DNA of 64,000 nucleotides from Nocardia asteroides. GTDB taxonomy: Bacteria > Actinomycetota > Actinomycetes > Mycobacteriales > Mycobacteriaceae. How positions within the stretch are numbered: position 1 is the first letter of the stretch; every line of letters starts with the position of its first letter. Below are positions 903 through 45,378 of this stretch, piece by piece. The position numbers and the translations under genes were made by a program. Under the pieces are notes generated by a model that saw nothing but the letters and a program-made list of their open reading frames with translations, had not been told where the DNA came from and did no database searches. Location: contig NZ_CP089214.1 in the NCBI RefSeq assembly GCF_021183625.1, positions 1,302,001 to 1,366,000 of the forward strand. Direction: 5' to 3'.

Positions 903-2723
903 TCAGCCCGCGTCGGTCGCCAGCAGTTCGCGCAGGTCCGCGACGGCGGTGCGGAGGTGCTCCGCGAAGGCGTGCATCTCCCCTGCCACCGGCTGCGGGG
1001 TGGCGAGGTAGAGCTTCCACCGGTCCGGCAGCAGCACGTAGGCGACGCCGATGCAGCTCGGGCTGGTGGAGCCGAAACCGAACTGGCGGATGTGCACCGA
1101 CGGCGCCGAGCTGGTGCTCAGGTAGTCGTCGCGCAGGATCCGCCAGCCCGGGCTGGTGTACAGCGGCAGCGGCTCGGTGACCCCGAGCTCGGCGCCCCGG
1201 CGGCGCTGGATCCACTCCAGCTCCCACAGGTGCTGCTCGGGCGCGGCCCCGGCCTGGCACTGCCTGGCCCGCTCCACGTGCGCCGCCGCGGCGGCCCGCG
1301 CGGCGGCCAGCTTGGCCTCGGTGGAGGCGCCCGCGTCCTCGAAGGCGTCCACGAAGGCGATGATCTCCGGGGTGATCACCCGCATGGCCTCGGTGCGGCC
1401 GTTGCGCCACTGCCTGGTCGCGATCGACTCGTAGGTGGCGCCGGTGAAGCCCTTGCTGCGCCGGTGCGCGATCTGGTAGCTGAGCTGCGCGAACGCGTCC
1501 GGGCTTATCTTCAGCGCCTTGGCGGCCTCGGTGCCGAAGTCGTCGAAGGAGACGACCTGGGTCGCGTTCGCCGCGGCGTAGTCGGCGAAATCGGCGGCGG
1601 CCGCGGCGATGTCGGCGCGCTGCGCGGCGGTCAGGGTGAACTCGATCGGCTCGACCGGCGGCAGCCCCTGCCCGCGCGCCCCCGAGCGCTCCGCGTGCTC
1701 GGCGAGCGGGGTGCCGAGCAGGGTGTCGACGAAGGAGAGGACGGTGGTGCCGTCCAGCCCGCAGTGCTCGACGTTGATCCCGGCCTGGCCGTCGGCGAAG
1801 ACGACGAAGGTGACGGCCTTGTCGAAGTACCGGTTGCCGCTGTCGCCGTGCAGCAGCTGGTCGCTGGCCTGCTGCTCGTCCTGCGGCGCGAAATCCTCCA
1901 GCGCGACCACGAACAGCGCCGACTCGATGGTCTCGATGGCCGCGGCGTTGCCCGGGTCGGCCAGCAGCTCGGCCCGGCTCGCGGCCCACTCCGCGCGGGC
2001 CTTGGTGGTCAGGTGCCCGATCGCGGTGTCGGTGGCGGCGGCCTTCGCCCCCGCCTTGAGCACCGCGCGCAGCCCGTCGGTGATGTCCTCGGCCGAGTAG
2101 GGCGCGCCGTCCGGGCCGACCACGTCGAGCCGGAAGGCGTTGCCGCGGTGGAAGACCAGGATGTGCCGCGCGGTGGCGGGGCCGGGGTACTCCTCGGAGT
2201 AGGGCACCCGCACCGAGTCCTGCTCCGCGCCCGGGATCCTGGTCTCGGCGAAGAGGTACTTGTTCTGCCACATGGAGAGCTGCTTGCCGCGCTGGGTGAC
2301 CGGCGGGATCTCCTCGGCGTCGAGCGCGAGCTTGTAGTCGACGGCGGCGAGCGTGATGGCGGCGGCCCGCTCGGCCTGGTCGGCCGAGGTCGCGGCGGCG
2401 AGCGGGGTGTCGTCGCGGAACAGGAAGAAGAAGTTCGCGTTCAGCGCGATCCGGTCGCGGCGGCCCAGGTAGCGGGAGGGCCAGAACAGGTCGAGCCAGC
2501 TGCCGACGCCGGGAGTGGCGTCGTACTCGGCGAGCGCGGCGTGCAGGGTGCGGCCGGGGCCGTCCGGGCGCAGCAGGTCGGCCACGGCGGCCTCGGTCGC
2601 TGCGCGCTCGTCGTCGGTGAGGAGCGGGGCGCTCCACTCCAGGAACCGGGCGGCGCTGTCGTCCAGGGTCGGCAGCGGCACCCTCGGCAGCTGGTCCTCG
2701 GCGGCGAAGGTTCGTGGGCTCAC
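903..2723 (-). CDS. Carnitine/choline O-acyltransferase family protein
   Basis: A 606-residue protein of the Carn_acyltransf family, close to the length of animal carnitine acetyl- and octanoyltransferases. Visible family marks: the catalytic-histidine segment NVEHCGLDG (His about 320) after GNRYFDKAVTFVVFADG, the GATYESIATRQWRNGRT segment, the LSTSSAPS substrate motif and FGFGSTSPSCIGVAY near the end. Family members move an acyl group between CoA and the hydroxyl of carnitine or choline. Such enzymes are scarce in bacteria. The GTG start at 2723 overlaps the stop of the upstream methyltransferase by 4 bp (GTGA), so translation is probably coupled. With the oxygenase and methyltransferase upstream it is the last gene of a three-gene operon; the true acceptor is unknown and might be a hydroxylated, methylated amine made by those enzymes. 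Confidence 0.88.
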   Translation of the reverse strand: MSPRTFAAEDQLPRVPLPTLDDSAARFLEWSAPLLTDDERAATEAAVADLLRPDGPGRTLHAALAEYDATPGVGSWLDLFWPSRYLGRRDRIALNANFFFLFRDDTPLAAATSADQAERAAAITLAAVDYKLALDAEEIPPVTQRGKQLSMWQNKYLFAETRIPGAEQDSVRVPYSEEYPGPATARHILVFHRGNAFRLDVVGPDGAPYSAEDITDGLRAVLKAGAKAAATDTAIGHLTTKARAEWAASRAELLADPGNAAAIETIESALFVVALEDFAPQDEQQASDQLLHGDSGNRYFDKAVTFVVFADGQAGINVEHCGLDGTTVLSFVDTLLGTPLAEHAERSGARGQGLPPVEPIEFTLTAAQRADIAAAAADFADYAAANATQVVSFDDFGTEAAKALKISPDAFAQLSYQIAHRRSKGFTGATYESIATRQWRNGRTEAMRVITPEIIAFVDAFEDAGASTEAKLAAARAAAAAHVERARQCQAGAAPEQHLWELEWIQRRRGAELGVTEPLPLYTSPGWRILRDDYLSTSSAPSVHIRQFGFGSTSPSCIGVAYVLLPDRWKLYLATPQPVAGEMHAFAEHLRTAVADLRELLATDAG

Positions 2724-3595
2724 GAGTTGTCCTCGGGGTCGGCGGAGTGTTCCGGTAGCGGTCGGGAGAGGTGAAGGGTCGCATACAGCGACCCGTCGGC
2801 CTCGTACCCGGTGGTATCGATGCCCTTGTCCGCCAACGCCTTCAACACCTGCGCCTGCTCGTCGGCGGAGGCGAAGCGCCGCTGTGCGTGGAGTCCGGGC
2901 ACCTGCTCGGTGCGGTACCCGAGCGCCGCGAGCTCCGCGGCGACGGGACCGTAGTCGAACATGCGCAGCACGAAGTGTGCCATCCACGGCCTGCGGCGCG
3001 GATGCGCGGTGGCCACCCGCACCAGCGTCTTCTCGGTGACATAACCGATGCACCCGGTGGAGATCACCAGGTCGGCGCGGGCCAGCACCTCACGCTGGTC
3101 CTCGTCCGGATCGGCCGACTCCAGGTCGGCGTGCACCACCTCGTCCAGCAGCCCGGCCTCGGCCGCGTACTCCAGAGCCGGGCGCGACGCGTCGATCCCG
3201 AGGAAGCGGGCGTCAACGCCAGGCACCTCGGCCCTCCCCTTGTCGAGCGCGAGCGCGGAATCCCGGTCGGTGGTGCCCGCGTAGCTCTCGGCGAGCTCGG
3301 CGAGGCTGGTGCCGAAGCGCAGCAGCGCCGCGTTCACCCCGTAGGAGCAGCCGATGTCGAGCACCGTCGGCACCGCGACCCGGGCCGAGGCCCGATACTC
3401 GCGGAGCTGCTGCTGGAAGAAGGGTGCCGCCGAATCGGGGATCGAATAGCCCAGCTCCGACATCCGCCGGTAGTACTCACGGGGATCGGGGCGATCGTAG
3501 ATGTGGTCGAAGGAGGCTTTCCCGGTCGTGTGCAAGGGTACCGGCACTGTGCGTTCCTCTCGGTCGAGCCAGAAATCAATCGAGTAATCGGTCAC
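2720..3595 (-). CDS. Class I SAM-dependent methyltransferase
   Basis: About 291 residues. The Rossmann motif I VLDIGCSYGVN, an acidic loop (FLGIDASRPALEYA) and LVISTGCIGYV (motif IV region) mark a class I methyltransferase. The substrate cannot be read from the sequence. The N-terminus DYSIDFWLDREERTV and the C-terminal half are not of a methyltransferase family I can name. Two starts are possible: GTG at 3595 (VTDYSIDFW, chosen because conserved-looking sequence begins there) or ATG at 3625, which adds ten Pro/Arg-rich residues. Either overlaps the upstream oxygenase gene, and the stop overlaps the acyltransferase GTG, so all three proteins are probably made in coupled fashion. Given the neighbours, N-methylation of an amino acid or amine is a reasonable guess, not a demonstration. 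Confidence 0.85.
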   Translation of the reverse strand: MTDYSIDFWLDREERTVPVPLHTTGKASFDHIYDRPDPREYYRRMSELGYSIPDSAAPFFQQQLREYRASARVAVPTVLDIGCSYGVNAALLRFGTSLAELAESYAGTTDRDSALALDKGRAEVPGVDARFLGIDASRPALEYAAEAGLLDEVVHADLESADPDEDQREVLARADLVISTGCIGYVTEKTLVRVATAHPRRRPWMAHFVLRMFDYGPVAAELAALGYRTEQVPGLHAQRRFASADEQAQVLKALADKGIDTTGYEADGSLYATLHLSRPLPEHSADPEDNS

Positions 3596-4439
3596 CGCGG
3601 ACGGCGGAGGCCGCCGCGGCGACATGGTCCGGCAGCACCCGGCCGAAAAGCTGCCTGGTCCGTTCCACGGTGCCGATCACACCGGGCCGGTCGGTGTAGG
3701 CGAAGATCGCCGAATGCCGCTGCACCGCGCCGGAAACCGGGGAGACGCGGTGCAGGGAGAAGCGCCCCTGGAAGAGCTGCAGATCGCCGGGGCGCAGGTC
3801 GAGCCGCTGCACCGGGTACGAGCCGGTGCCGGTGAGCACGGCGCGGACGTCGTCCAGGTTCTCCGCATCGGTGCTGCGGATGTTCGGGCAGAACTCGAAG
3901 ACGCCGCCCGCCTCGGCGGGCTGGGTGAGCATGCTGACGGTGAACTCGTTGGTGTCGAAGTGCCACGGGTGCGACATGCCGGGCGCCACCACGTTGAGGC
4001 AGAGCCCGGCCAGCGGGTCGGCGAACTCGTGCAGCCCGGGCAGCCCGAAGCAGTCGGCGACGAAGCGCTGGAAGACCTCGCTCACGTACAGCCGGTGGAT
4101 CAGCGCGTCGGCGGGGATCAGATCCCGCGGCACGAAGGCATTGCCGCGCTCGAGCACGATGGCACCCGGATGATCCGGTGGCAGTTCGGAATCGAGCGGG
4201 ATGTTGTAGGCGTTGACCCGCTCCACCTTGTAGTAGGCGTCCGGCGCGATGGCGGCGCCCTGCGCGCGCAGCGTCTCGACCAGCTCCGGCCGGACGAACT
4301 CGCGCAGGACGTGGCAGCCGGTGGCGGCCAGCTCGGTTCTGGCGGCGCCGACCGCGGCGCGCCACCCCTCCCCCCCGGGATCTGCCAGCGAATACCGTGC
4401 GGTATCGACGATTTCGTCGAGGACCCCCATCACCGTCAT
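3576..4439 (-). CDS. Fe(II)/2-oxoglutarate-dependent oxygenase, HalD/ArpA-like
   Basis: A 287-residue protein with a cupin-type facial triad: HPWHFDTNEF supplies H160 and D162, and GRFSLHRVSPV supplies H230, with R241 a candidate for 2-oxoglutarate binding. The layout resembles the HalD/BesD/ArpA group, which includes free-amino-acid hydroxylases and halogenases. Halogenases replace the Asp of HxD by Gly; here the Asp is kept, so hydroxylation is expected. First gene of the operon with the methyltransferase and carnitine acyltransferase. ATGs at 4439 and 4430 are both possible; neither has a clear ribosome site. Two palindromes lie upstream (4496-4521). Substrate unknown; lysine or a methylated derivative is an attractive guess from the family and the carnitine context. 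Confidence 0.82.
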   Translation of the reverse strand: MTVMGVLDEIVDTARYSLADPGGEGWRAAVGAARTELAATGCHVLREFVRPELVETLRAQGAAIAPDAYYKVERVNAYNIPLDSELPPDHPGAIVLERGNAFVPRDLIPADALIHRLYVSEVFQRFVADCFGLPGLHEFADPLAGLCLNVVAPGMSHPWHFDTNEFTVSMLTQPAEAGGVFEFCPNIRSTDAENLDDVRAVLTGTGSYPVQRLDLRPGDLQLFQGRFSLHRVSPVSGAVQRHSAIFAYTDRPGVIGTVERTRQLFGRVLPDHVAAAASAVRGDRLLD

Positions 4440-32454: not shown

Positions 32455-35400
32455 ATGCAGCAGCTCACTCCCCCGGTCACCCCTGCCCCCGACGGCTCGT
32501 TCGAGCTCTCCGCGGCGCAGCTCGGGATCTGGTTCGCGCAGCACATCGCCGGCGCGACGCCCATCTCCATCGCGCAGTACGTCGAGCTCAGCGGCGCCGT
32601 CGACGTCGCCGAGCTGGAGCGCGCGGCGCGGCGGGCGGGCCGCGAGTTCGGCACCGGTTACCTGCGCATCGGGGAGGCCGACGGCAGGCCCTACCAGCTG
32701 GTCGACCCGACCCTGGACGACAGCCTCGAGCTGCTCGACCTGCGCGCCGAGCCGGATCCGGAGGCGGCGGCGCAGGCATGGATGCGGGCCGAGTACCGGG
32801 CGCCGCTCGACCCCGCCACCGACCGGCTGGTGCACGTGGCGGTGCTGCGGCTCGCGGAGGACCGCTGGTACTGGTACTCGCGCATCCACCACCTGGTGCT
32901 GGACGGCATGGGCGCGCTGGCCATGGTGCAGCGCACCGGCGAGCTGTACAACGCGGCGGTCGACGGCGTCGAGCCGCCCGCCGCCAAGGCCGACGACCTG
33001 CGCACCATCGTCGCCGCGGACCGCGCCTACCGCGAGTCCGGCCGCTTCGCGACCGACCGCGAGTACTGGCTGGAGCACCTGGCCGGGATGGCCGACCCGG
33101 TGAGCCTGGCCGGGCGGGTCGCCGCGGTCGACGGCCACCCGGCGCTCGTCTCCGGCGCGCTGCCGGAATCCACCGCCGCGCTGCTGGACTCGGTGGCGGC
33201 CGCGGTGAACTCCGGCGTCGCCCCGACCGTGGTCGCCGCCTTCGGCGCCTACCTGGCCGCCATGACCGGCGCGCCGGAGGTGGTGCTCTCGCTGCCGGTC
33301 TCGGCGCGCACGACGGCGAGCCTGCGCCGCTCCGGCGGGATGATCGCCAACGTGGTCCCGCTGCGGCTCGCGGTGGGCCCGGCGACCACGGTCGGTGCCC
33401 TGATCCGGGCCGCGCAGGGCGAGCTGACCGGCGCGCTGCGCCGCCAGCGCTACCGCCAGGAGGACATCTTCCGCGACCAGGGCCGCGCCATGGACGAGGC
33501 GGTCTCCTTCGGCCCGTCGGTGAACCTCATGATGGTGGACACCAGGATCCGGCTCGGCGCCGTGACCGGGCGGCTGCACGTGCTCACCTCCGGGCTGATC
33601 GACGACCTCTTCGTGAACCTCTACCCCGGCGTCGGCGGCGAGAGCACGCACATCGACTTCCAGGGCAACGCCAACCTCTACAGCGAAGCCGAGCTGGCCG
33701 CGCAGCACCGCCGCTTCCTGCTCTTCCTGCACCGCTTCCTGGCCGCCGGGCCGGATTCTCCGCTCGCCGGGCTCACCGTGCTCACCGATGCCGAGCGCGC
33801 GGAGCTGGCGCCGCGACACGGCGCTGCGGGCCCCGCCGTGCGGGCGCTGCCCGAGATCATCGCCGCCGGCATCGATCTCGACCGGAGTGCCGTCGCGCTC
33901 ACCGGGGACGGGGCCGCGCTCACCTACGCCGAGCTGGATGCCCGCACCGCGCAGCTGGCCCGCGAGCTCGTCGCCCGCGGTGCCGGGCCGGAACGCGCCG
34001 TCGCGGTCTCGATCCCGCGCTCGGTCGACTCCGTCCTCGCCACCCTGGCGGTGGCGCGCACGGGTGCCGCCTTCGTCCCGATCGACCCCACCTACCCCGC
34101 CGACCGGATCGAGCACATGCTCTCCGACAGCGGCGTGGTCACCGGCGTGACGGTCGCCGCCGGGCTGCCGGGCCGGATCGACTGGCTGGTGCTGGACGAT
34201 CCCGCCACCGCGGCCCGGATCGCCGGGCAGAGCACCGAGCCGCCCGCCGTCCGGGTGCATCCGGACCAGGCCGCCTACGTGATCTACACGTCGGGTTCGA
34301 CGGGGCTGCCCAAGGGGGTCGTCGTAACGCACCGCGGCCTGGCCGGGCTGGTCACCGGCTCCGGCGACGGCTTCGGCGTCACCGGTGATTCCGTTGTCGC
34401 GCACGCGGTCTCGCCGAGCTTCGACATCTCGGTGGAGGAGATCCTGGTGACGCTGGCGCGCGGCGCCACGCTCGCCGTCGTCCCGCCGTCGGCCTACGCC
34501 GGTGCGGAGCTGGCCGCGGTGCTGCGCGGCCACGGCGTGACGCACCTGAACGTCACCCCGACCGTGGTCGGCTCGCTCGACCCCGCCGCGCTGCCCGCGC
34601 TGCGCACCGTCGTGGTCGGCGGCGACGCCTGCCCGCCGGAGCTGGTGACCCGCTGGGCCGGCCGCACCCTGCTGAACGGCTACGGCCCCACCGAGACCAC
34701 GGTCACCGCGACGCTCACCGGGCCGCTCGACCCGGACGCCCCGGTCACCATCGGCACCCCGCAGCCCGGGGTGGCCGCGGTGGTGCTCGACCCCTGGCTG
34801 CGCCCGGTGCCCGCGGGCACCACCGGCGAGCTGTACCTGGCCGGGCCGGGGCTGGCGCGCGGCTACCACCGCCGCACCGGGCTCACCGCCGCCCGCTTCG
34901 TGGCGAACCCGCACGCCGCGGGCGAGCGCATGTACCGCACCGGCGACCTGGTGCGCTGGACCGACCGCTTCGAGCTGGAGTACCTGGGCCGCAGCGACTT
35001 CCAGGTGAAGGTGCGCGGCTTCCGGATCGAGCTGGGCGAGATCGACGCCGCGCTGCACCGGCACCCGGAGGTCGAGTTCGCGCTCACCGTCGGGGCCGAG
35101 ACCCCGTCCGGGGCGACCGCGCTGGTCTCCTACGTGCTGCCGCGGCCGGGTACCGCGCCGCACCCGGAGGCGCTGAAGGCGGCCGCCGGGGAGTCGCTGC
35201 CCTCGTACATGGTGCCGTCGGTGGTGCTGCTGCTGGACCGCGTCCCGCTGACCCCGCTCGGCAAGGTGGACCGGAAGGCGCTGCCCGCACCCGATTTCGG
35301 CGCCCGCGCGAGCACCGGCCGGACGCCGTCGACCCCGCGCGAGGAGCTGCTGGCGCGGCTCTTCGCCGAGGTGCTCGGGCTGGAGTCGGTCGGGGTGGAC

Positions 35401-38400
35401 GAGAGCTTCTTCGCGCTCGGCGGCGACAGCATCGTCTCCATCCAGCTGGTGTCGCGGGCCAAGGCCGCCGGGCTCGGCTTCGGCGCCCGCGACGTGTTCG
35501 AGCGCAAGACGGTGGCCGCGCTGGCCGCCGTCGCCACCGACGTCACCGCGGTCGCGGTGCGCGAACTGCCCGGCGGCGGAACGGGTCCGGTCGAGCCGAC
35601 CCCGATCGTGCACGCCATGCTGGACGGCGGCCACTGGCGGCGCTTCGGCCAGGCCGTGCTGATCGGGCTGCCCGCCGGCACCGACCTGGCCCCCGCGCTG
35701 CAGACCCTGCTCGACCACCACGACCTGCTGCGCTCGACGCTGCGCCGCGACCCGGACACCGACGGCTGGACCTGGGATGTGGCCGCTCCCGGCGCGGTCG
35801 ACGCGGGCGACCTGATCGAGACCGTGCCCGGCGGGACCGATCTCGACGCCGCGCTGGACGCCGCCGCCGACCGGCTGGACCCGGAGCACGGCGTCGTTGT
35901 CCGGGTGGTCGTCGTCGAGCGGGACGAGCCGCTGGCCTGGCTGGTGCTGCACCACCTGGTCACCGACGGCGTCTCCTGGCGCATCCTGTTCCCCGACCTC
36001 GCCACCGCCGCGCTCGGCGGCACGCTCGCCCCGGTCGGCACCTCGTTCCGGCGCTGGGCGCACGGCCAGCGCGAGCACGCCGCCACCAGGGCGGCCGAGC
36101 TGCCGGTCTGGCAGCGCATCGCCGCCACCGACGACCCGCCGATCGGCTCCGCGCCCTTCGACCCCGCGCTCGACGTGGTGGGCACGATGGCGCAGGAGCA
36201 CACCGTCATCGCGCCCGAACTGGCCGACGCCACGCTCGGCGCCACCGCCGAGCGGTTCCACTGCGGCCCCGACGACGTGCTGCTCGCCGCGCTCGCCCTG
36301 GCCATCACGCGCTGGCGGGACCGCCGCACGGCGGTCTTCACGCTGGAGGGCCACGGCCGCGCCGAATCGGTCCTGCCCGGCGCCGACATCGCCCGCACGG
36401 TCGGCTGGTTCACCACCGTGCACCCGGCCGCCGTCGACCTCACCGGCATCGACCTCGCCGACCCGGGCGCGGCGCTCAAGGCCGTCAAGGAGCAGCTGCG
36501 CGCGGTGCCGGACAAGGGCATCGGCTACGGCATGCTGCGCTACCTGAACCCGGAGACCGCGCCCGCGCTCACCGGGCACCCCGAGCCGCAGATCAGCCTG
36601 AACTACCTGGGCCGGGCCGAGACCGACGGCAGCGGCCCCTGGCTGCCGCGCCGGTTCGCCGCCACCCAGGACGACCGCGCGCCGCTGGCCGCCGCGCTCG
36701 ACATCAACGCGGTGCGCACCGCGGCCGGGCTCGAGGTCACCTGGGCCTACGCCGCCCGGCTGCTCACCGCCGCCGAGGTCACCGAGCTGGCCGCGCACTG
36801 GGAGTCGGCGCTGCGCGCGCTCGCCGCCGCGGAGACCGGGGGCCGGACGCCGTCCGACTTCCCGCTGCTCGCGCTGGAGCAGCCGCAGATCGAGAGCTGG
36901 GAGCGCGAGTACCCGGCGCTCACCGACGCGTGGCCGCTCTCGCCGCTGCAGTACGGGCTGCTCTTCCACGCCGTCTACGACACCGACACCGCCGACGGCT
37001 ACACCGTGCAGTCGCTGCTCACCCTGGCGGGCACGGTCGACGCGGCCCGGCTGCGCGCCGCCGCGCAGGCGGTGATCGACCGGCACGAGAACCTGCGGGT
37101 CGCCTTCGTGGAGACCGCGGACGGGCCGCGGCAGCTCGTCGTCGCCGCCGCCGAGGTGGGCTGGCGCGAGCTGGACCTGCGCGCGGTGGCCGACCCCGAG
37201 GCCAGGCAGCGCGAGCTGGATCGGATCGTCGCCGTCGACGCCCGCACCCGCTTCGAGCTGACCCGCCCGCCGCTGGTCCGCTTCACCCTGGTCCGGCTGC
37301 CCGGCGACACCTGCCGGCTGATCCTCACCAACCACCACCTGGTGCTCGACGGCTGGTCGACGCCGCTGCTGGTCCGTGAGCTGCTCACCCTCTACGTCAC
37401 CGCGGGCGACGCCGCCGCGCTCCCGCCCGCGCACTCCTACCGCGAGTTCCTGGCCTGGCTGGCCGAGCGCGACGACGCCGCCTCGCTCGCCGCCTGGACC
37501 GCGTCGCTGGCGGGCATCGACACCCCCACCCGGGCGCTGCCGAGCCTGGCCGGGATCGAGACCACCGAGACCGGCGCGGTCACGCTGGAGTTGCCGCGCG
37601 CGACCGTCGCCCGCTGGGAGAGTACGGCCCGCGCCGCCGGCGCCACGGTGAACACCCTGGTGCAGGCGGGCTGGGCGCTGCTGCTCGCCATGCTGACCGG
37701 CCGCACCGACGTGGTCTTCGGCGGCACCGTCTCCGGGCGCCCGCCGGAGCTGCCCGGAGTCGAGGAGATGATCGGGCTCTTCATCAACACGCTGCCGGTG
37801 CGGGTCCGGCTGGACCCGGCGGAGAGCGCGGCCGCGCTGCTGGCCCGGGTGCAGGCCGAGCAGGCGCGGCTGCTGGATCACCAGCACGTCGGGCTGGCCG
37901 CCATCCACGAGGCGGTCGGGCTGGCCGAGCTCTTCGACACGCTCACCGTCTTCGAGTCCTACCCGATCGACCGGGCGGCGCTCTCCCAGGCGCTGGACAT
38001 CGCCGGGATGCGGGTGCTGGACGTGGCGGGCACCGACGCCACCCCCTACCCGCTGAACCTCATGGTGATCCCGCAGCGCGGCGACGACGGCGACACCCTC
38101 GAGGTCACGCTCAAGTACCTGACCGGGCACCTCGCCCCCGACGCCGCGCGGCCGCTGCTGGAGCGCTTCGTCCGGCTCACCGACCAGCTCGCCGCCCGCC
38201 CGGAGGCCCCGCTCGCCCACCTGCGCACCTGCGCCGACGCCGAACTGGCCGCGCTGGCCCCGGTGCGCGGCCCCGCGGGGGTCCCCCCGCGCACCCTGCC
38301 CGAGCTGCTCACCGCGGGCGCCGCGCTCGACCCCGACGCGATCGCGGTGCGCGCGGGCGACCTGAGCATGACCTACCGCGAGCTCGACACCTGGTCCAAC

Positions 38401-41400
38401 CGGTTCGCGCGGATGCTGCTGCGCCGCGGCATCGGCCGCGAGGTGTTCGTGATCCTGGCGCTGACCCGCTCGCTGGAGTCGGTGGTCGCGGTCTGGGCGC
38501 TGGCCAAGACCGGTGCCGCCTTCGCCCCGCTGGACCCGAACCACCCGGTGGAGCGGATCGAGCACATGCTCACCGATTCGAAGGCCCCGATCGGCGTCAC
38601 CGTCACCGCGACCGGCGAGACGCTGCCGAGCACCATCGACTGGCTGCTGCTCGACGACCTGAACACGATCCGCCGGGTCATGACGGTCTCCGCCGACCCG
38701 ATCACCGACGCCGAGCGCGGCGGCCCGATCTTCCCGGACCAGACCGCCTACCTGATCTACACCTCCGGCTCCACCGGCAAGCCGAAGGCGGTGCTGCTCA
38801 GCCACCGCGGCATCGCGAACATCGTCGCGGACCAGCGGGAAAGGCTCGGCCACGACTCCGCGACCAGCGCGCTGCAGGTGGCCTCGCCGAGCTTCGACGC
38901 CTCGGTGTACGAGCTGCTCAGCGCGCACGCCTCCGGCGGGCGGCTGGTGGTGGCGCCGCCGGAGGTCTACGGCGGCGCCGCGCTGGCCGAGCTGCTCCGC
39001 ACCGAGCGGGTGACGCACGCGGTGATCACCCCGTCCGCGCTGGCCACCATGGAGCCGGCCGGGCTGGACGAGCTGCGGGTGCTCGTCGTCGCGGGCGAGG
39101 CCGCGACCCCCGAGCTGCTGGAGCGCTGGGCGCCGGGCAGGCGCATGGTGAACGAGTACGGCCCCACCGAGTTCAGCATCTGGGCCACCGGCCCGGCCGA
39201 GCTGGTCGCGGGTGAGCGGATCACCATCGGCGGGCCGATCCGCGGTGCCGCGGCGGTGGTGCTCGACAGCTGGCTGCGCCCGGTCCCGGTCGGCGTGCCC
39301 GGCGAGCTGTACCTGGCCGGGCCCGCGCTGGCCCGCGGCTACTTCAACCGGTTCGGCATGACCGCGGCGCGGTTCGTCGCCGACCCGTACGGCGCGCCGG
39401 GCAGCCGCATGTACCGCACCGGCGACATGGTCCGCTGGACCGAGCGGCACAAGCTGGAGTACCTGGGCCGCAGCGACTTCCAGGTGAAGATCCGCGGGCT
39501 GCGGATCGAGCTGGGCGAGATCGACGCGGTGCTCTCCCGCGACGAGCAGGTGGAGTACGCGGTCACCATCGGCCGCGCCGGGCCGGCCGGCGCGACCGTG
39601 CTGGTGTCGTACGTGCTGCCCGTCGCTGGCGTCCCGCTCGACGTCGAGCTGCTGCGCGAGCGGGTGGCCGCGGTGCTGCCCGGGTACATGGTGCCCGCGT
39701 ACGTGGTGGTGCTGGACGCGATCCCGCTCACCCCGGTCGGCAAGCTGGACCGGGCCGCGCTGCCGATCCCGGACTTCACCGACGCCGCCCGCCCGTACCT
39801 GGCGCCGCGCACCCCGGTCGAGGAGGCGGTGGCCGCCGTCTTCGCCGAGGTGCTCGAGGCCGAGCGGGTCAGCGCCGACCAGTCCTTCTTCGAGCTGGGC
39901 GGCAACTCGCTGAGCGCCACCAAGGTGGTGGCGCGGGTGAACGCGGCGCTCGGCGCGCGGATCGCGCTGCGCGACCTCTTCGACGCCCCGACCGTCGCGC
40001 AGCTCGCGGCGCGGGTGGTGCCCGCGCTCGACGCGGGCGGCGGGCGCGCGCTCGCCGCGCGGGTCCGGCCGGACCGGATCCCGCTCTCCCCCGCACAGCA
40101 GCGCATGTGGGTGCTGAACCGGATGGATCCGGGCTCGCCCGGCTACAACATCGCGGTCGCGCTGCGGCTCACCGGCGCGCTGGACACCGGCGCGCTGCGC
40201 GCCGCCTTCGGTACCGTCGCCGCCAGGCACGAGAGCCTGCGCACCGTCTACCCGCAGGACGCCGACGGCGCCCGCCAGGTGGTGCTCGACGCCGCCGACG
40301 CCACCCCCGATGTCGCCGTGCGCGACGTGGCGCCCGCCGCGCTGCGCGCCGAGATCACCGCCGCGGCGGCCGTCGGCTTCGACCTGGTCGAGCAGGTACC
40401 GCTGCGCGCCACCGTCTTCCGGCTCGCCCCGCAGACGCACGTGGTGCTGCTGGTCGTGCACCACATCAGCGCCGACGGCGCCTCCATGGCCCCGCTCGCG
40501 ACCGACCTGGTCACCGCCTACGCCCGGCACACCGCGGGGAGCACCGAGGCGGCGCCGCCGCTGCCGGTGCAGTACGCGGACTTCGCGCTGTGGCACCGGG
40601 AGCTGCTCGGCACCGAGTCCGACCCGGATTCGGTGGCGGCGCGGCAGCTCCGGTTCTGGACCGACGCGCTGACCGGCGCACCGGACGTGGTCGAGCTCCC
40701 CGCCGACCGCCCGCGACCGGCGGTGCAGTCGCTGCGCAGCGCCGACCTGGAGTTCAGCCTGGACCCGGCGCTGGCGGGGGCGCTGCGCGCCCTGGCGAAC
40801 GAGCACGGCGCGAGCCTGTTCATGGTGGTGCACGCGGCGCTCGCGGTGCTCACCGCGCGGCTCAGCGGCACCGGCGACGTCGTGATCGGCACCCCGGTGG
40901 CCGGCCGCGGCGACCGCGCCCTCGACGACCTGGTCGGCATGTTCGTGAACACCCTCGCCCTGCGCACCCCCGTCGATCCGGCCGCCACCTTCGGCGAGTT
41001 CCTCGCCACCGTGCGCGGCGCCGACCTGGATGCCTTCGCGCACGCCGACGTCCCCTTCGAGCGGCTGGTGCAGGTGCTCGACCCGGCCCGCTCGACCGCG
41101 CACCACCCGCTCTTCCAGGTCACGCTGAGCCTGCAGAACTACGTGGCGCCGGTGCTGGAGCTGCCCGGCCTCCGGGTCGAGGTCGAGGACTTCGACCGCG
41201 GCTCCTCGCAGTTCGACCTCACCGTCGACCTGCGCGAACACGCGGACGGGCTGACCGGCGTGCTCACCTACGCCACCGACCTCTTCGACGAGCCGAGCGC
41301 CCGCGCGCTGATCCGGCGCTGGCAGCGCATCCTGAGCGCCGTCACCGCCGCGCCCGGCGTCCGGATCGGCGACATCGACCTGCTCGACGCGGCCGAGCGC

Positions 41401-44400
41401 AGCGAGCTGGCCACCGTCGCCGGGCCGGAGACCGCGGGAACGGCAACGCTTCCCGCGCTCCTCTCCGGCACCGCCGACCGCTACCCGGACCGCACGGCCG
41501 TGATCGCCGACGGCGTGACGCTCAGCTACCGCGAGCTGGCCGAGCGCGGCACCCGGCTGGCCCGGCTGCTGCGCGGCGCGGACACCGACTCGGTGGTGGC
41601 GCTCGGGCTGCCGCGCGGCGCCGCGCTGCTCACCGGGGTGTGGGCGGCCGCGCTGGCGGGCGCCGCCTTCCTGCCGGTGGATCCGAAGCACCCCGCCGAG
41701 CGGATCGAGCACATGCTCACCGACTCCGGCGCCCGCACCGGCATCACCCTCGCCGCGTACCGGGACCGCCTGCCGGACACCGTCGACTGGCTCGTCCTCG
41801 ACGACCTCGGTGACCGGCCGAAGGCCGCGCTGCCCGCCGTGCACCCGGACGACCTCGCCTGGCTGATCTACACCTCCGGCTCCACCGGCACCCCCAAGGG
41901 CGTCGCGGTCGCGCACCGCGGCATCGCCGACCTGGTCGCCGCGCAGCGCGAGCTGCTCACCCTGGACGAGACCGCCCGGGTGCTGCAGGTGGCCTCGCCG
42001 AGCTTCGACGCCTCGATCTTCGAGGCGCTCATGGCCTTCGGCCACGGCGGCGCCGCGGTGGTGTCGCCGCCGGAGGTCTTCGGCGGCGCCGCGCTGGCCG
42101 AGCTGATCGCCGCCGAGGCGGTGACTCACCTGGTGATCACGCCGTCGGCGCTGGCCACCATCGACCCGGATACGGTGCCCGGCGTGCGGGTGCTCGCCGT
42201 CGCGGGCGAGGCCGTCGGGCCGGAGCTGGTGGCGCGCTGGGCGACCGGGCGCGACCTGGTGAACCTGTACGGCCCGACCGAGAGCACGATCTGGGCGACG
42301 GCCTCCGCGCCGCTGGCCGCCGACGAGCCGGTGACCATCGGCTCCCCGATCCGCGGGGCGTCGGTGCTGGTCCTGGACGACCGGCTGCGTCCGGTGCCGG
42401 TCGGCGTCGCGGGCGAGCTGTACCTGGCGGGCCCGGCGCTGGCGCGCGGCTACCACGGCCGCCCCGGGCTCAGCGCCGCCCGCTTCGTGGCGCACCCGTT
42501 CGCGCCGGGGCAGCGCGCGTACCGCACCGGTGACCTGGTGCGCTGGACCCGCGCCGGAGCCACGCTGCGGCTGGAGTACATCGGCCGCACCGACTTCCAG
42601 GTCAAGGTGCGCGGCCAGCGCATCGAGCTCGGTGAGATCGACGCCGTGCTCGGCCGGGTCGACGGCGTGCGGCAGGCGGTGACGCTCGGCGTGCCCGGCC
42701 CCGGCGGCACCGCGCTCGCCGCCTACCTCGTGCGCGCCCCCGGCGCCGAGCTGGACACCGCACTGGTGCGCGCCGCCGCGGCGGAGACGCTGCCCGGCTA
42801 CATGGTGCCCGCGGCCTTCGTCGTCCTCGACGAGCTGCCGCTCACCGCCGTCGGCAAACTGGACCGGAACGCGCTGCCCGCGCCGGAGTTCAGCACCGAG
42901 CGCGCGGGGTATCGGGAACCCGCGACGCCGACCGAGCAGATCCTGGCCGAGGTCTACGCCGAGCTGCTCGGGCTGGATCGGGCCGGGGCCGACGACTCGT
43001 TCTTCGCGCTCGGCGGCGACAGCATCCTCGCCATCCAGCTGGTGTCGCGGGCCAAGCAGCACGGCGTCACCTGCACGCCGCTGCAGGTCTTCGAGCACCG
43101 CACGGTGGCCGCGCTGGCCGCCGCCGCGGACGCGAGCGGCCCCGCGGTGGTGCTGGAGGAGCTGCCCGGCGGCGGGGTCGGCGAGTTCCCGCTGCCGCCG
43201 ATCGGCCACTACATGCTCGAGCGCGGCGGCGACCACCGCCGCTTCGCGCAGACGGCCGTGCTCGACCTGCCCGCCGGAATCGACCGGGCGGGCATCGTGG
43301 CCACGCTCGCCGCGGTGCTCGACCGGCACGACATGCTGCGCGCCCGCCTTGTCACGCACGGCGAGCCGCGGGTGCTGGTCGCCGAGCCCGGCTCGGTTGC
43401 GGTGGACGGGCTGCTGCACCGGGTGCGGCACAGCACCACCGACCCGATCGAGCTGCGCGAGCACGCGGCGAGCGAGCTGGACGCGGCGCTGGACCGGCTC
43501 GATCCGGCGAACGGCACCGTGCTGCAGTTCGTCTGGCTGGACCCGGAGTCCGGCACCGGCCGGTTGATCATCGTCGCGCACCACCTGGTGATCGACGGCG
43601 TCTCCTGGCGCATCCTGATCCCGGACCTGATCGGCGCCTGGGCGCAGGTCTCGGCGGGCGCCACCCCGGTGCTCGCCGAGACCGGCACCTCGGTGCGGCG
43701 CTGGGCCACCGCGCTCACCGAGGAGGCGCACAGCGCGCACCGCACCGCCGAGCTCGGGCACTGGCAGGCGGTCGCCGCCACCCCGGACCCGCTGCTCGCC
43801 GGCCGCCCGCTCGACCCCGCGATCGACACCACCCGCACCCTGCGGCTGCTCGACCGCGAGGCGACCGCCGAGGTCACCGCCGCGCTGCTCACCACGCTGC
43901 CCGGCATCTTCGGCGGTGGCGTGGAGGACGCGCTGCTCGCCACGCTCGCGCTCACCCTGCTGCGGCTGCGCGGCGGCACCGACCCGGTGCTGCTCCGGCT
44001 GGAGGGGCACGGCAGGCAGGAGGAGGTGATCCCGGGCGCCGAGCTCTCCCGCACCGTCGGCTGGTTCACCAGCCTCTACCCGGCGCGGCTCGACCTCACC
44101 GGGATCGACCTCGCCGATGCGCTCGCCGGCGGCCCGGCCATGGGCGCCGCCATCCGCGCCACCGCGCGGCAGCTGCGTGCCATTCCGGACAAGGGCATCG
44201 GTTTCGGGCTGCTGCGCTACCTGAACGCCGAGACCGCCGCGCAGCTCCCGGCCGGGCTGCCCGGCCAGGTCAGCGTCAACTACCTGGGCCGCTACGCCGC
44301 GGGCGACATCCCGGCCGGGCTGGACGGGCTCGGCTGGCTGCCCACCGACGCGCTCGGCGAGCTGCCCGCCGGCGAGCACCCGGATGTGCCGCTGCAGTCC

Positions 44401-45378
44401 GTGATCGACATCAACGCCCTCGTCGTCCGCGACCGGCTGCAGATCACCGTCGGCTACCCCGGCGAGCTGCTGGACGAGCCCTTCGCGGCCCGGCTGGCCG
44501 AGCTCTGGCTGGACACCCTGGCCGCGGCCGCCCGCTTCGCCGGCTCCGACGCGGCCCGCGCCTTCACCGAAACCGCATCGGCCCCGGCCGGTTCCGGACT
44601 CGGCCTGGACGTGGTGCTGCCCATCCGGACCGGCGGAGCCGAGCCCGCGCTGTTCTGCGTGCACCCCTCCTCCGGCATGGCCTGGACCTACCTCGGCCTC
44701 GCCGACCTGCTCGAGCCCGGCCGCCCGATCTACGGGCTGCAGGCGCCGGACCTGAGCGGGCGCGAGCCGTCGGTGCGCTCCATCGAGGAGTTCGCCGACC
44801 GCTACGTCCGGGAGATCCGCGCGCTGCAGCCGGAGGGGCCCTACCACCTGCTCGGCTGGTCGTTCGGCGGGCTCATCGCGCACCACGTCGCGACGAAGCT
44901 GCGCGCGCAGGGCGCCGAGCTCGGCGTGGTCGCGCTGCTCGACGCCGACACCGCCGATCTCGACGGCGACAGCTTCGAACCGCTCACCCCCGGCGCGTTC
45001 GTGAACGCCTTCGGCTCGGTCTTCGGCATCGAGGACGTCCCCGCCGACGCCACCGCGGAGCGGGCCGCCGAGCACATCAGGGAGCGGCTCGGCATCGCGC
45101 TGATCGACGCCGGAACGCTGGAGCGGCTGGCCGGCTCGCACAACGCCTCCGCGCACACCAGGACCGGCTACCGGCGCCCGGTGTTCGACGGCGACATCGT
45201 CTACGTCTCCGCCACCGTCGACAGCTCGGAGATCTTCGGCGCCGAGAACTGGCGGCCCTACGTCACCGGCGCCATCACCAACCACGACGTCGCGGTCACC
45301 CACGACGAACTCACCGCACCGCACGCGCTGGCCATCGTGGCGCGCGTGCTCGATCACCACCTGGGAGGCCAGCGATGA
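32455..45378 (+). CDS. Trimodular non-ribosomal peptide synthetase (C-A-T-E-C-A-T-C-A-T-E-TE)
   Basis: A 4307-residue NRPS. Module 1: C (about 15-450; HHLVLDG at 145), A (TSGSTG at 612), carrier Ser992 in LGGDSI, epimerase (HHLVTDG at 1166; [18 protein letters not shown]). Module 2: C (HHLVLDG at 1627), A (TSGSTG 2103), carrier Ser2485 in LGGNSL. Module 3: C (HHISADG 2669), A (TSGSTG 3140), carrier Ser3523 in LGGDSI, epimerase (HHLVIDG 3709), thioesterase with GWSFGG (Ser4136). This predicts D-L-D residues released by hydrolysis or cyclisation; an epimerase next to the thioesterase also occurs in ACV synthetase. The N-terminal C domain is EntF-like and could accept an acyl or aryl starter. 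By-eye specificity residues: DIENVGGVT (module 1), DAYVVAEIW (2), DAFVAALIW (3), not assignable with confidence. No MbtH gene is nearby. The stop overlaps the exporter ATG. Confidence 0.96.

Follow-up and report, generated by a model that had tools for sequence, protein, structure and literature searches.

What might be made by three adjoining genes that pair an amino-acid-type oxygenase with an acyltransferase of the carnitine family? A window of 64,000 nucleotides (nt) from Nocardia asteroides (contig NZ_CP089214.1, the whole stretch that we analysed) carries such a set at 903..4439: a 2-oxoglutarate (2OG) oxygenase (OG), a methyltransferase-like protein (MT) and a carnitine-type acyltransferase (AT). 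The initial annotation recognized this trio, and open reading frames (ORFs), Pfam matches and predicted folds agree with it. A keyword search of the literature, limited in collection and wording, found no published description of the three together. The families of OG and AT and the fold of MT are already known; hydroxylation followed by acylation with these partners is new in the literature searched.

We propose that the enzymes act on a small substrate of the amino-acid type, either a common amino acid or the corresponding betaine. OG would hydroxylate it; MT, where present, would methylate it, possibly on nitrogen, making or completing a quaternary ammonium group; and AT would esterify the newly introduced hydroxyl with a short acyl group to give an O-acyl ester. 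The predicted product is a carnitine-like ester, probably not of carnitine itself; a beta-hydroxylated alpha-betaine, HO-CHR-CH(COO-)-N(CH3)3+, would be compatible with each of the three enzymes. Confidence differs from part to part. OG, MT and AT almost certainly work as a unit, and AT probably acylates the product of OG. The chance that MT acts on nitrogen is a little short of even, and the complete hydroxylate-methylate-acylate explanation is offered tentatively, as a possible rather than a probable account. We infer the order of steps, the class of substrate and the length of the acyl group, and the site of methylation is the least certain part. The substrate is probably a common metabolite, because no other dedicated gene recurs beside the three.

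A conserved unit within and beyond Nocardia

Among 71 Nocardia genomes (the source and 70 others, within 119 genomes searched), OG was found in 69, and MT and AT in 70 each. The fragmented genome G055 (about 1,340 contigs) has none of the three, and the single-contig genome G048 (locus L045) encodes MT and AT with no OG match, apparently through loss. Of the 70 AT loci, 67 were examined; G013 and G017 were excluded with matches split over contigs, as was G032, where all three matches lie together on one contig. OG, MT and AT follow one another in this order on one strand at 66 of the 67 loci and, because strand and order are the same there, the arrangement is not chance. In G028, AT and MT were each detected in two pieces. 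Genes are inserted at five Nocardia loci: a Pyr_redox_2 flavoenzyme lies between MT and AT in G001, G025, G027 and G060, and flavoenzyme, TetR and major facilitator superfamily (MFS) genes lie between OG and MT in G070. This flavoenzyme of ~450 amino acids (aa) (L032:6465-7808 (-); also L031, L033, L034 and L035) is distantly related to TIGR03169, and its five copies are 72-91% identical; we rejected it as a shared pathway member.

Outside Nocardia the distribution is patchy. AT was found in 4 of 396 genomes of a phylum sample, and in 35 of 298 genomes, or 13 of 76 genera, of an order sample. A scan of one genome per species over 84,980 species gave 447 loci with AT relatives, and the counts for wider loci that follow refer to the best 80 of these 447 by similarity to the AT of G087, all of which were examined and which are not a random sample. 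The 80 loci fall into 16 named genera and two lineages of metagenome-assembled genomes (MAGs), with 15 in Nocardia; the genera include Actinomadura, Streptomyces, Nocardia, Pseudonocardia, Amycolatopsis, Actinomycetospora, Salinispora and Frankia. OG adjoins AT in all 80 (the OG of L129 is cut at a contig end), and MT is present in 63. The order is OG-MT-AT at 58 loci and OG-AT-MT at five, all in Pseudonocardia, and 17 loci hold OG-AT without MT, two of them with OG on the opposite strand. Co-occurrence in relatives, which the initial annotation had set beforehand as a test, was thus borne out at both scales.

Beyond OG, MT and AT, clustering of the called genes at the 80 loci placed no protein family in more than three genera, and one MFS family in three; the gene calls came from a codon score, which may miss or mis-call genes. 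An apparent four-genus family in this clustering proved to be mis-called frames antisense to OG, and the genus-specific flanks, none in more than three genera, were rejected as shared pathway members. Because only OG, MT and AT recur widely across loci with differing flanks, the trio is a small autonomous unit, set in differing genomic places in each genus, and not an accident of Nocardia gene order. OG-AT is its usual core, and MT is a variable partner. Mirror-tree correlations of 0.86-0.90 (62 loci) were not used, as shared ancestry alone yields such values.

Active sites of the oxygenase and the acyltransferase

OG matches Pfam HalD at 46.9 bits (cut-off 26), which places it within the BesD/HalD profile, and HalD and WelO5 are its only Pfam matches. 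The iron ligands H160-F-D162 and H230 are retained, with HxD, and Asp162 itself, present at 80 of 80 wider loci. In alignment, OG has HFD with Asp162 where HalB and HalD show WG, and so lacks the halogenase trait; we take Gly replacing the Asp iron ligand to be the halide site of BesD-type halogenases. The earlier assignment to the hydroxylase rather than the halogenase type is therefore upheld. Relatives of OG are labelled 'HalD/BesD family halogenase' or 'arpA protein' in public records (NCBI, UniRef), and the retained Asp ligand, as expected of a hydroxylase, brings the 'halogenase' label into question.

The nearest fold cluster and top PDB matches of OG are lysine and ornithine halogenases and hydroxylases, so it groups with amino-acid enzymes, as had been anticipated. 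Because its solved close relatives act on free lysine or free ornithine, the substrate of OG would by analogy be a free amino acid or the corresponding betaine. The suggested origin from lysine fares less well. Leu143 and Thr163 of OG replace, in alignment, a Glu and an Asp common to HalB, HalD and lysine hydroxylases; over the 80 loci the first position is Leu in 73, Tyr in 6 and a gap in 1, and the second is Thr in 75, Leu in 4 and Val in 1. The corresponding contacts to the lysine ammonium are, we assume, Glu120 and Asp140 of BesD, numbers that a term search did not find in PMC10187165 or PMC13244439. With the aligned ammonium contacts replaced in this way, free lysine is probably not the substrate of OG.

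The match of AT to PF00755 covers positions 1-573 of 574 (E 9e-153; 510.3 bits, cut-off 22.3), and the protein aligns with carnitine acetyltransferase (CrAT) over residues 10-602, in accord with its first description as a full-length carnitine-type acyltransferase. It is the sole PF00755 protein found in the source genome, and none was found in 14 control genomes. Catalytic His320 and Asp324 are retained in 67 of 67 Nocardia ATs and 80 of 80 wider ATs, two sets that overlap. The CrAT positions His343, Glu347 (as Asp), Lys423, Asp430, Tyr452, Glu453, Thr465, STS and Phe566 are likewise kept in 80 of 80. Phe550, Tyr431, Thr444 and STS of AT are by their CrAT roles presumably acceptor-side residues, and their invariance suggests an onium-bearing acceptor. 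The CrAT Met564 position, which belongs to the acyl pocket, is Phe in AT (Phe548; Trp in 3 of 80), and this points to a short acyl group.

The initial annotation made carnitine- or choline-binding residues in AT a test of its proposal, and the expectation holds at the Phe, Tyr and Thr positions and fails at the Arg for the carboxylate. Gln497 aligns with the Arg of CrAT and CPT2 (CrAT Arg518) in 67 of 67 Nocardia and 80 of 80 wider ATs. Since CrAT Arg518 is the anchor of the carnitine carboxylate, carnitine itself is unlikely as the acceptor; AT is a PF00755 member that, in alignment, lacks the Arg of strict carnitine acyltransferases. Gln497 would imply that the acceptor carboxylate is masked, absent or placed elsewhere than in carnitine. 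Additionally, the CrAT Thr467 position is Ala in both sets throughout. AT thus holds Thr444, Ala446 and Gln497 at CrAT Thr465, Thr467 and Arg518, where choline acetyltransferase presumably has Val, Asn and Asn.

Arg occurs at this position in only three settings. One is locus L043 (7961-11487), a second copy in Nocardia G053, where OG precedes a fused MT-AT gene whose AT part retains both the catalytic His and the Arg. Another is a second protein of the carnitine-acyltransferase fold in four Nocardia genomes (L046:8888-10678 (-), L112, L113 and L114), with His replaced by Glu and Arg kept; the L046 paralogue adjoins an MFS transporter, an MppP-like pyridoxal-phosphate enzyme (TIGR04462, below cut-off) and a D-2-hydroxyacid dehydrogenase. 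The last is the outgroup acyltransferase L111 (genome G256), which at 29-31% identity was judged too distant to inform function. The join of L036 with L047 in the AT tree is a possible long-branch effect and was not used.

The variable methyltransferase and competing explanations

MT has no Pfam family above cut-off (best 21.8 against 27 bits). Its predicted model (predicted local distance difference test score, pLDDT, 90.3) has a class I methyltransferase fold, and the CSYGxNAALL motif is conserved. A list of near-invariant MT positions was set aside, since it takes in gap columns at the N-terminus. A tree of 41 sequences, which took in 19 of the 63 unit MTs, divides the unit-associated MTs between two distinct branches with good support, the first containing Nocardia, Streptomyces, Frankia and others and the second Pseudonocardia and G087, and the supported branches force at least two changes of the unit-association label. 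MT-family copies elsewhere in genomes with an MT-less unit lie outside the Nocardia-type branch in six of seven genomes placed on the tree, and that of Amycolatopsis sp. GM8 lies inside it. Two loci carry MT and AT fused in a single open frame, L043 (888 aa) and Gandjariella thermophila L123 (892 aa with the start chosen); apparent fusions of MT with AT or with the flavoenzyme in L077, L096 and L033 were rejected as aligner read-through over a stop codon. Repeated recruitment, the occurrence of both gene orders and the fusion speak for a functional link between methylation and AT.

Actinomycetospora offers a possible route to a quaternary acceptor where MT is missing. At all four of its loci (L148:323-7782, L168, L192 and L196), OG-AT lies 83-115 nt (from called starts) downstream of three co-directional genes, for an aldehyde dehydrogenase, an amino acid permease and a glucose-methanol-choline (GMC) oxidoreductase. 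The best models, obtained for L148 only, are betaine-aldehyde dehydrogenase for the first (582 bits, below the NCBIfam cut-off of 669) and choline dehydrogenase for the last (410 bits, below the cut-off of 605). None of the four genomes has an MT-family match (E 1e-10), and the context fits a supply of trimethylammonium from choline.

A number of observations weigh against a methylated product passed from OG to AT. The Actinomycetospora loci may represent one inherited event, with model scores below cut-off. MT is missing beside OG-AT at 17 of 80 loci and, at E 1e-10, nine of these 17 genomes have an MT-family match elsewhere (11 matches) and eight have none genome-wide, namely the four Actinomycetospora, two Pseudonocardia, Amycolatopsis suaedae and one MAG. 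Because MT is absent and the AT pocket residues are unchanged, AT needs no methylation by MT in the species without a family match. The AT tree (50 rows) forces at least six changes of the 'no MT' label, and repeated absence argues that methylation is not always required; any proposed pathway must account for this as well as for the repeated recruitment. The first Foldseek match of MT is farnesyl-diphosphate methyltransferase and, among the matches listed, N-, O- and C-methyltransferases are tied, so the modelled fold is no guide to whether N, O, C or S is methylated. The OG-AT core itself has exceptions at E 1e-10: G087 has AT then MT without OG, G116 has AT alone, G048 lacks OG as described, and G115 has a distant OG relative without AT or MT. 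At the same threshold, G108 and G091 have MT alone. The divergent trio copy L043 retains the carnitine-type Arg. According to PMC11852590, CrAT His343 is catalytic and Lys419 and Lys423 contact coenzyme A (CoA). The Lys419 position is Thr in 66 and Ala in 1 of the 67 Nocardia ATs, and Ala in 34, Ser in 24, Thr in 18, Val in 3 and Gln in 1 of the 80 wider ATs; as the aligned contact is lost, CoA is not certain as the donor. We rejected as a clue the MT-family genes elsewhere in MT-less genomes, whose nine neighbour genes were uninformative; of these 11 non-unit matches, ten were retrieved and nine (seven genomes) stand on the MT tree, with the copies of Salinispora G521 and G527 left out.

Much of this would also suit a scheme without a betaine, in which OG hydroxylates a non-quaternary amino acid, AT directly esterifies the new hydroxyl to give an O-acyl hydroxy-amino acid, and MT adds an optional modification on O (for example, forming a methyl ester) or C. 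The MT-less loci and genomes with the same AT pocket fit it, the MT fold gives N-methyltransferases no preference, and a carboxyl that is uncharged or esterified would agree with Gln497. However, Phe550, Tyr431, Thr444 and STS, acceptor-side residues by their CrAT roles, are invariant in 80 of 80 ATs, and recruitment of the MT family from two branches and the MT-AT single frame suggest a set role for methylation, which leaves this scheme a doubtful though serious contender. Far less credit is due to a conserved neighbourhood alone, with AT using a non-CoA donor or an acceptor unrelated to OG. The changed Lys419 position, the His-to-Glu paralogues of Nocardia, which suggest a fold turned to other uses, and AT or AT-MT without OG in G116, G087 and G048 would agree with it, but OG lies beside AT at 80 of 80 loci whose flanks vary, the genes occur in two orders, and MT and AT share a single frame twice; we consider it quite improbable.

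Two further explanations concern what the ester would be for. It could act as an acyl carrier or buffer: once hydroxylated, the metabolite would reversibly accept surplus short acyl groups from CoA, as acetyl-carnitine does in animals. Carnitine acyltransferases are reversible, and near-universal retention in Nocardia, with no exporter family in more than three genera, fits intracellular housekeeping; patchiness elsewhere in the order and phylum samples equally fits a specialised metabolite, and the CoA contact Lys419 is lost in AT, so that this role seems distinctly unlikely. A unit that produces or consumes true carnitine or homocarnitine, derived from lysine by trimethyllysine-type methylation, hydroxylation and acylation, is highly improbable. 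The anchor Arg is Gln in 67 of 67 and 80 of 80 ATs, the BesD-type lysine-ammonium contacts are lost in OG, no additional gene family accompanies the unit from genus to genus, and the Pfam matches of OG do not include the trimethyllysine/butyrobetaine hydroxylase family, which we take to be TauD-type. In its favour are the matching reaction types, the full-length AT, the Arg of L043 and the mammalian homocarnitine pathway, where delta-valerobetaine is hydroxylated and homocarnitine acylated (PMC11773067), which shows that onium acids other than carnitine undergo both reactions. The hydroxylate-methylate-acylate reading admits a wider form, in which a beta-hydroxy betaine made from a free amino acid and loaded with short acyl groups would be an actinobacterial counterpart of acyl-carnitine or acetylcholine, serving as a bacterial acyl buffer or signal independent of the eukaryotic pathway; this we regard as unlikely.

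Gene arrangement in the window and known systems

OG, MT and AT are three co-directional minus-strand genes in a tight operon, at the positions first given (Table 1). The initial annotation called all three overlapping. The 4-nt MT/AT overlap stands, and an overlap of the same size (-4) is present at 39 of 67 Nocardia loci. That of OG with MT exists only if MT starts at ATG 3625, where its longest ORF begins. GTG 3547 appears the better start, because GAGAGGAA precedes it and because the N. harenae homologue P0123, the closest to MT among the matches listed, has the 275 aa that this start gives; OG and MT are then separated by 28 nt and probably do not overlap. The unit is flanked by hisE and hisG on one side and by a haloacid dehalogenase (HAD) hydrolase, a Ser/Thr-kinase-like gene and metH on the other, with hisE and HAD named from Pfam and hisG, the kinase and metH from reading of the translations. 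Elsewhere in the window, a 4307-aa open frame (32455-45378 (+)) has condensation, AMP-binding and carrier domains of a nonribosomal peptide synthetase in its first 1348 residues, with an ABC transporter gene after it; reading frames are open on both strands there, and the codon score prefers plus.

Table 1. Features of the OG-MT-AT unit, in window coordinates
Feature	Position	Strand	Basis
OG: Fe(II)/2OG oxygenase, BesD/HalD type, 287 aa	4439..3576	-	H160, D162 and H230 retained
Putative Shine-Dalgarno-like sequence GAGAGGAA ahead of MT start GTG 3547	3561..3554	-	Sequence reading
MT: class I S-adenosylmethionine (SAM)-methyltransferase-like protein, 275 aa, likely start GTG 3547	3547..2720	-	Predicted-model fold; CSYGxNAALL motif
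GTGA, 4-nt MT/AT overlap (AT start GTG and MT stop TGA)	2720..2723	-	Sequence
AT: carnitine/choline acyltransferase-family protein, 606 aa, GTG start, full-length	2723..903	-	PF00755; CrAT/CPT2 alignments

AT adjoins an amino-acid-hydroxylase-type enzyme at 80 of 80 loci, in 16 named actinobacterial genera, and in almost all Nocardia genomes searched, and no product has been described. With only two or three enzymes, a hydroxylate-(methylate)-acylate unit should be tractable in vitro and might establish a new class of small acyl esters. Its solution would also reveal the role of the residues that replace the carnitine anchor.

Each enzyme has known relatives from which it departs. BesD/HalD-type halogenases and the HxD lysine hydroxylase homologue (PDB 7jsd, 9oet) share only 15-19% identity with OG and, as noted for HalB, HalD and the lysine hydroxylases, differ from it at Leu143 and Thr163. 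EgtD, like MmtN, is an amino-acid onium-forming methyltransferase. MmtN appears at Foldseek ranks 7, 8 and 13 for MT (E about 1e-5), yet it is 13% identical, ranks below farnesyl-diphosphate methyltransferase and is tied with unrelated methyltransferases. Carnitine-type acyltransferases are known mainly from eukaryotes. AT is like CrAT, CPT2 and choline acetyltransferase (PF00755) in its full-length domain and its catalytic His with acidic partner; it differs in being bacterial and beside an oxygenase, and in the changes from CrAT of Arg518 to Gln, Thr467 to Ala, Lys419 to Ala, Ser, Thr, Val or Gln, and Met564 to Phe or Trp. In fungi, the PF00755 fold has been recruited into specialised metabolism as the C-terminal carnitine-acyltransferase domain of polyketide synthases, whereas AT is a free enzyme beside OG and MT, with no polyketide synthase in the unit. 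Eukaryotic carnitine biosynthesis is alike in that a 2OG oxygenase hydroxylates a trimethylammonium compound, with O-acylation following; it differs in that its trimethyllysine and butyrobetaine hydroxylases presumably belong to another 2OG family, and in that no further gene family recurs beside OG, MT and AT.

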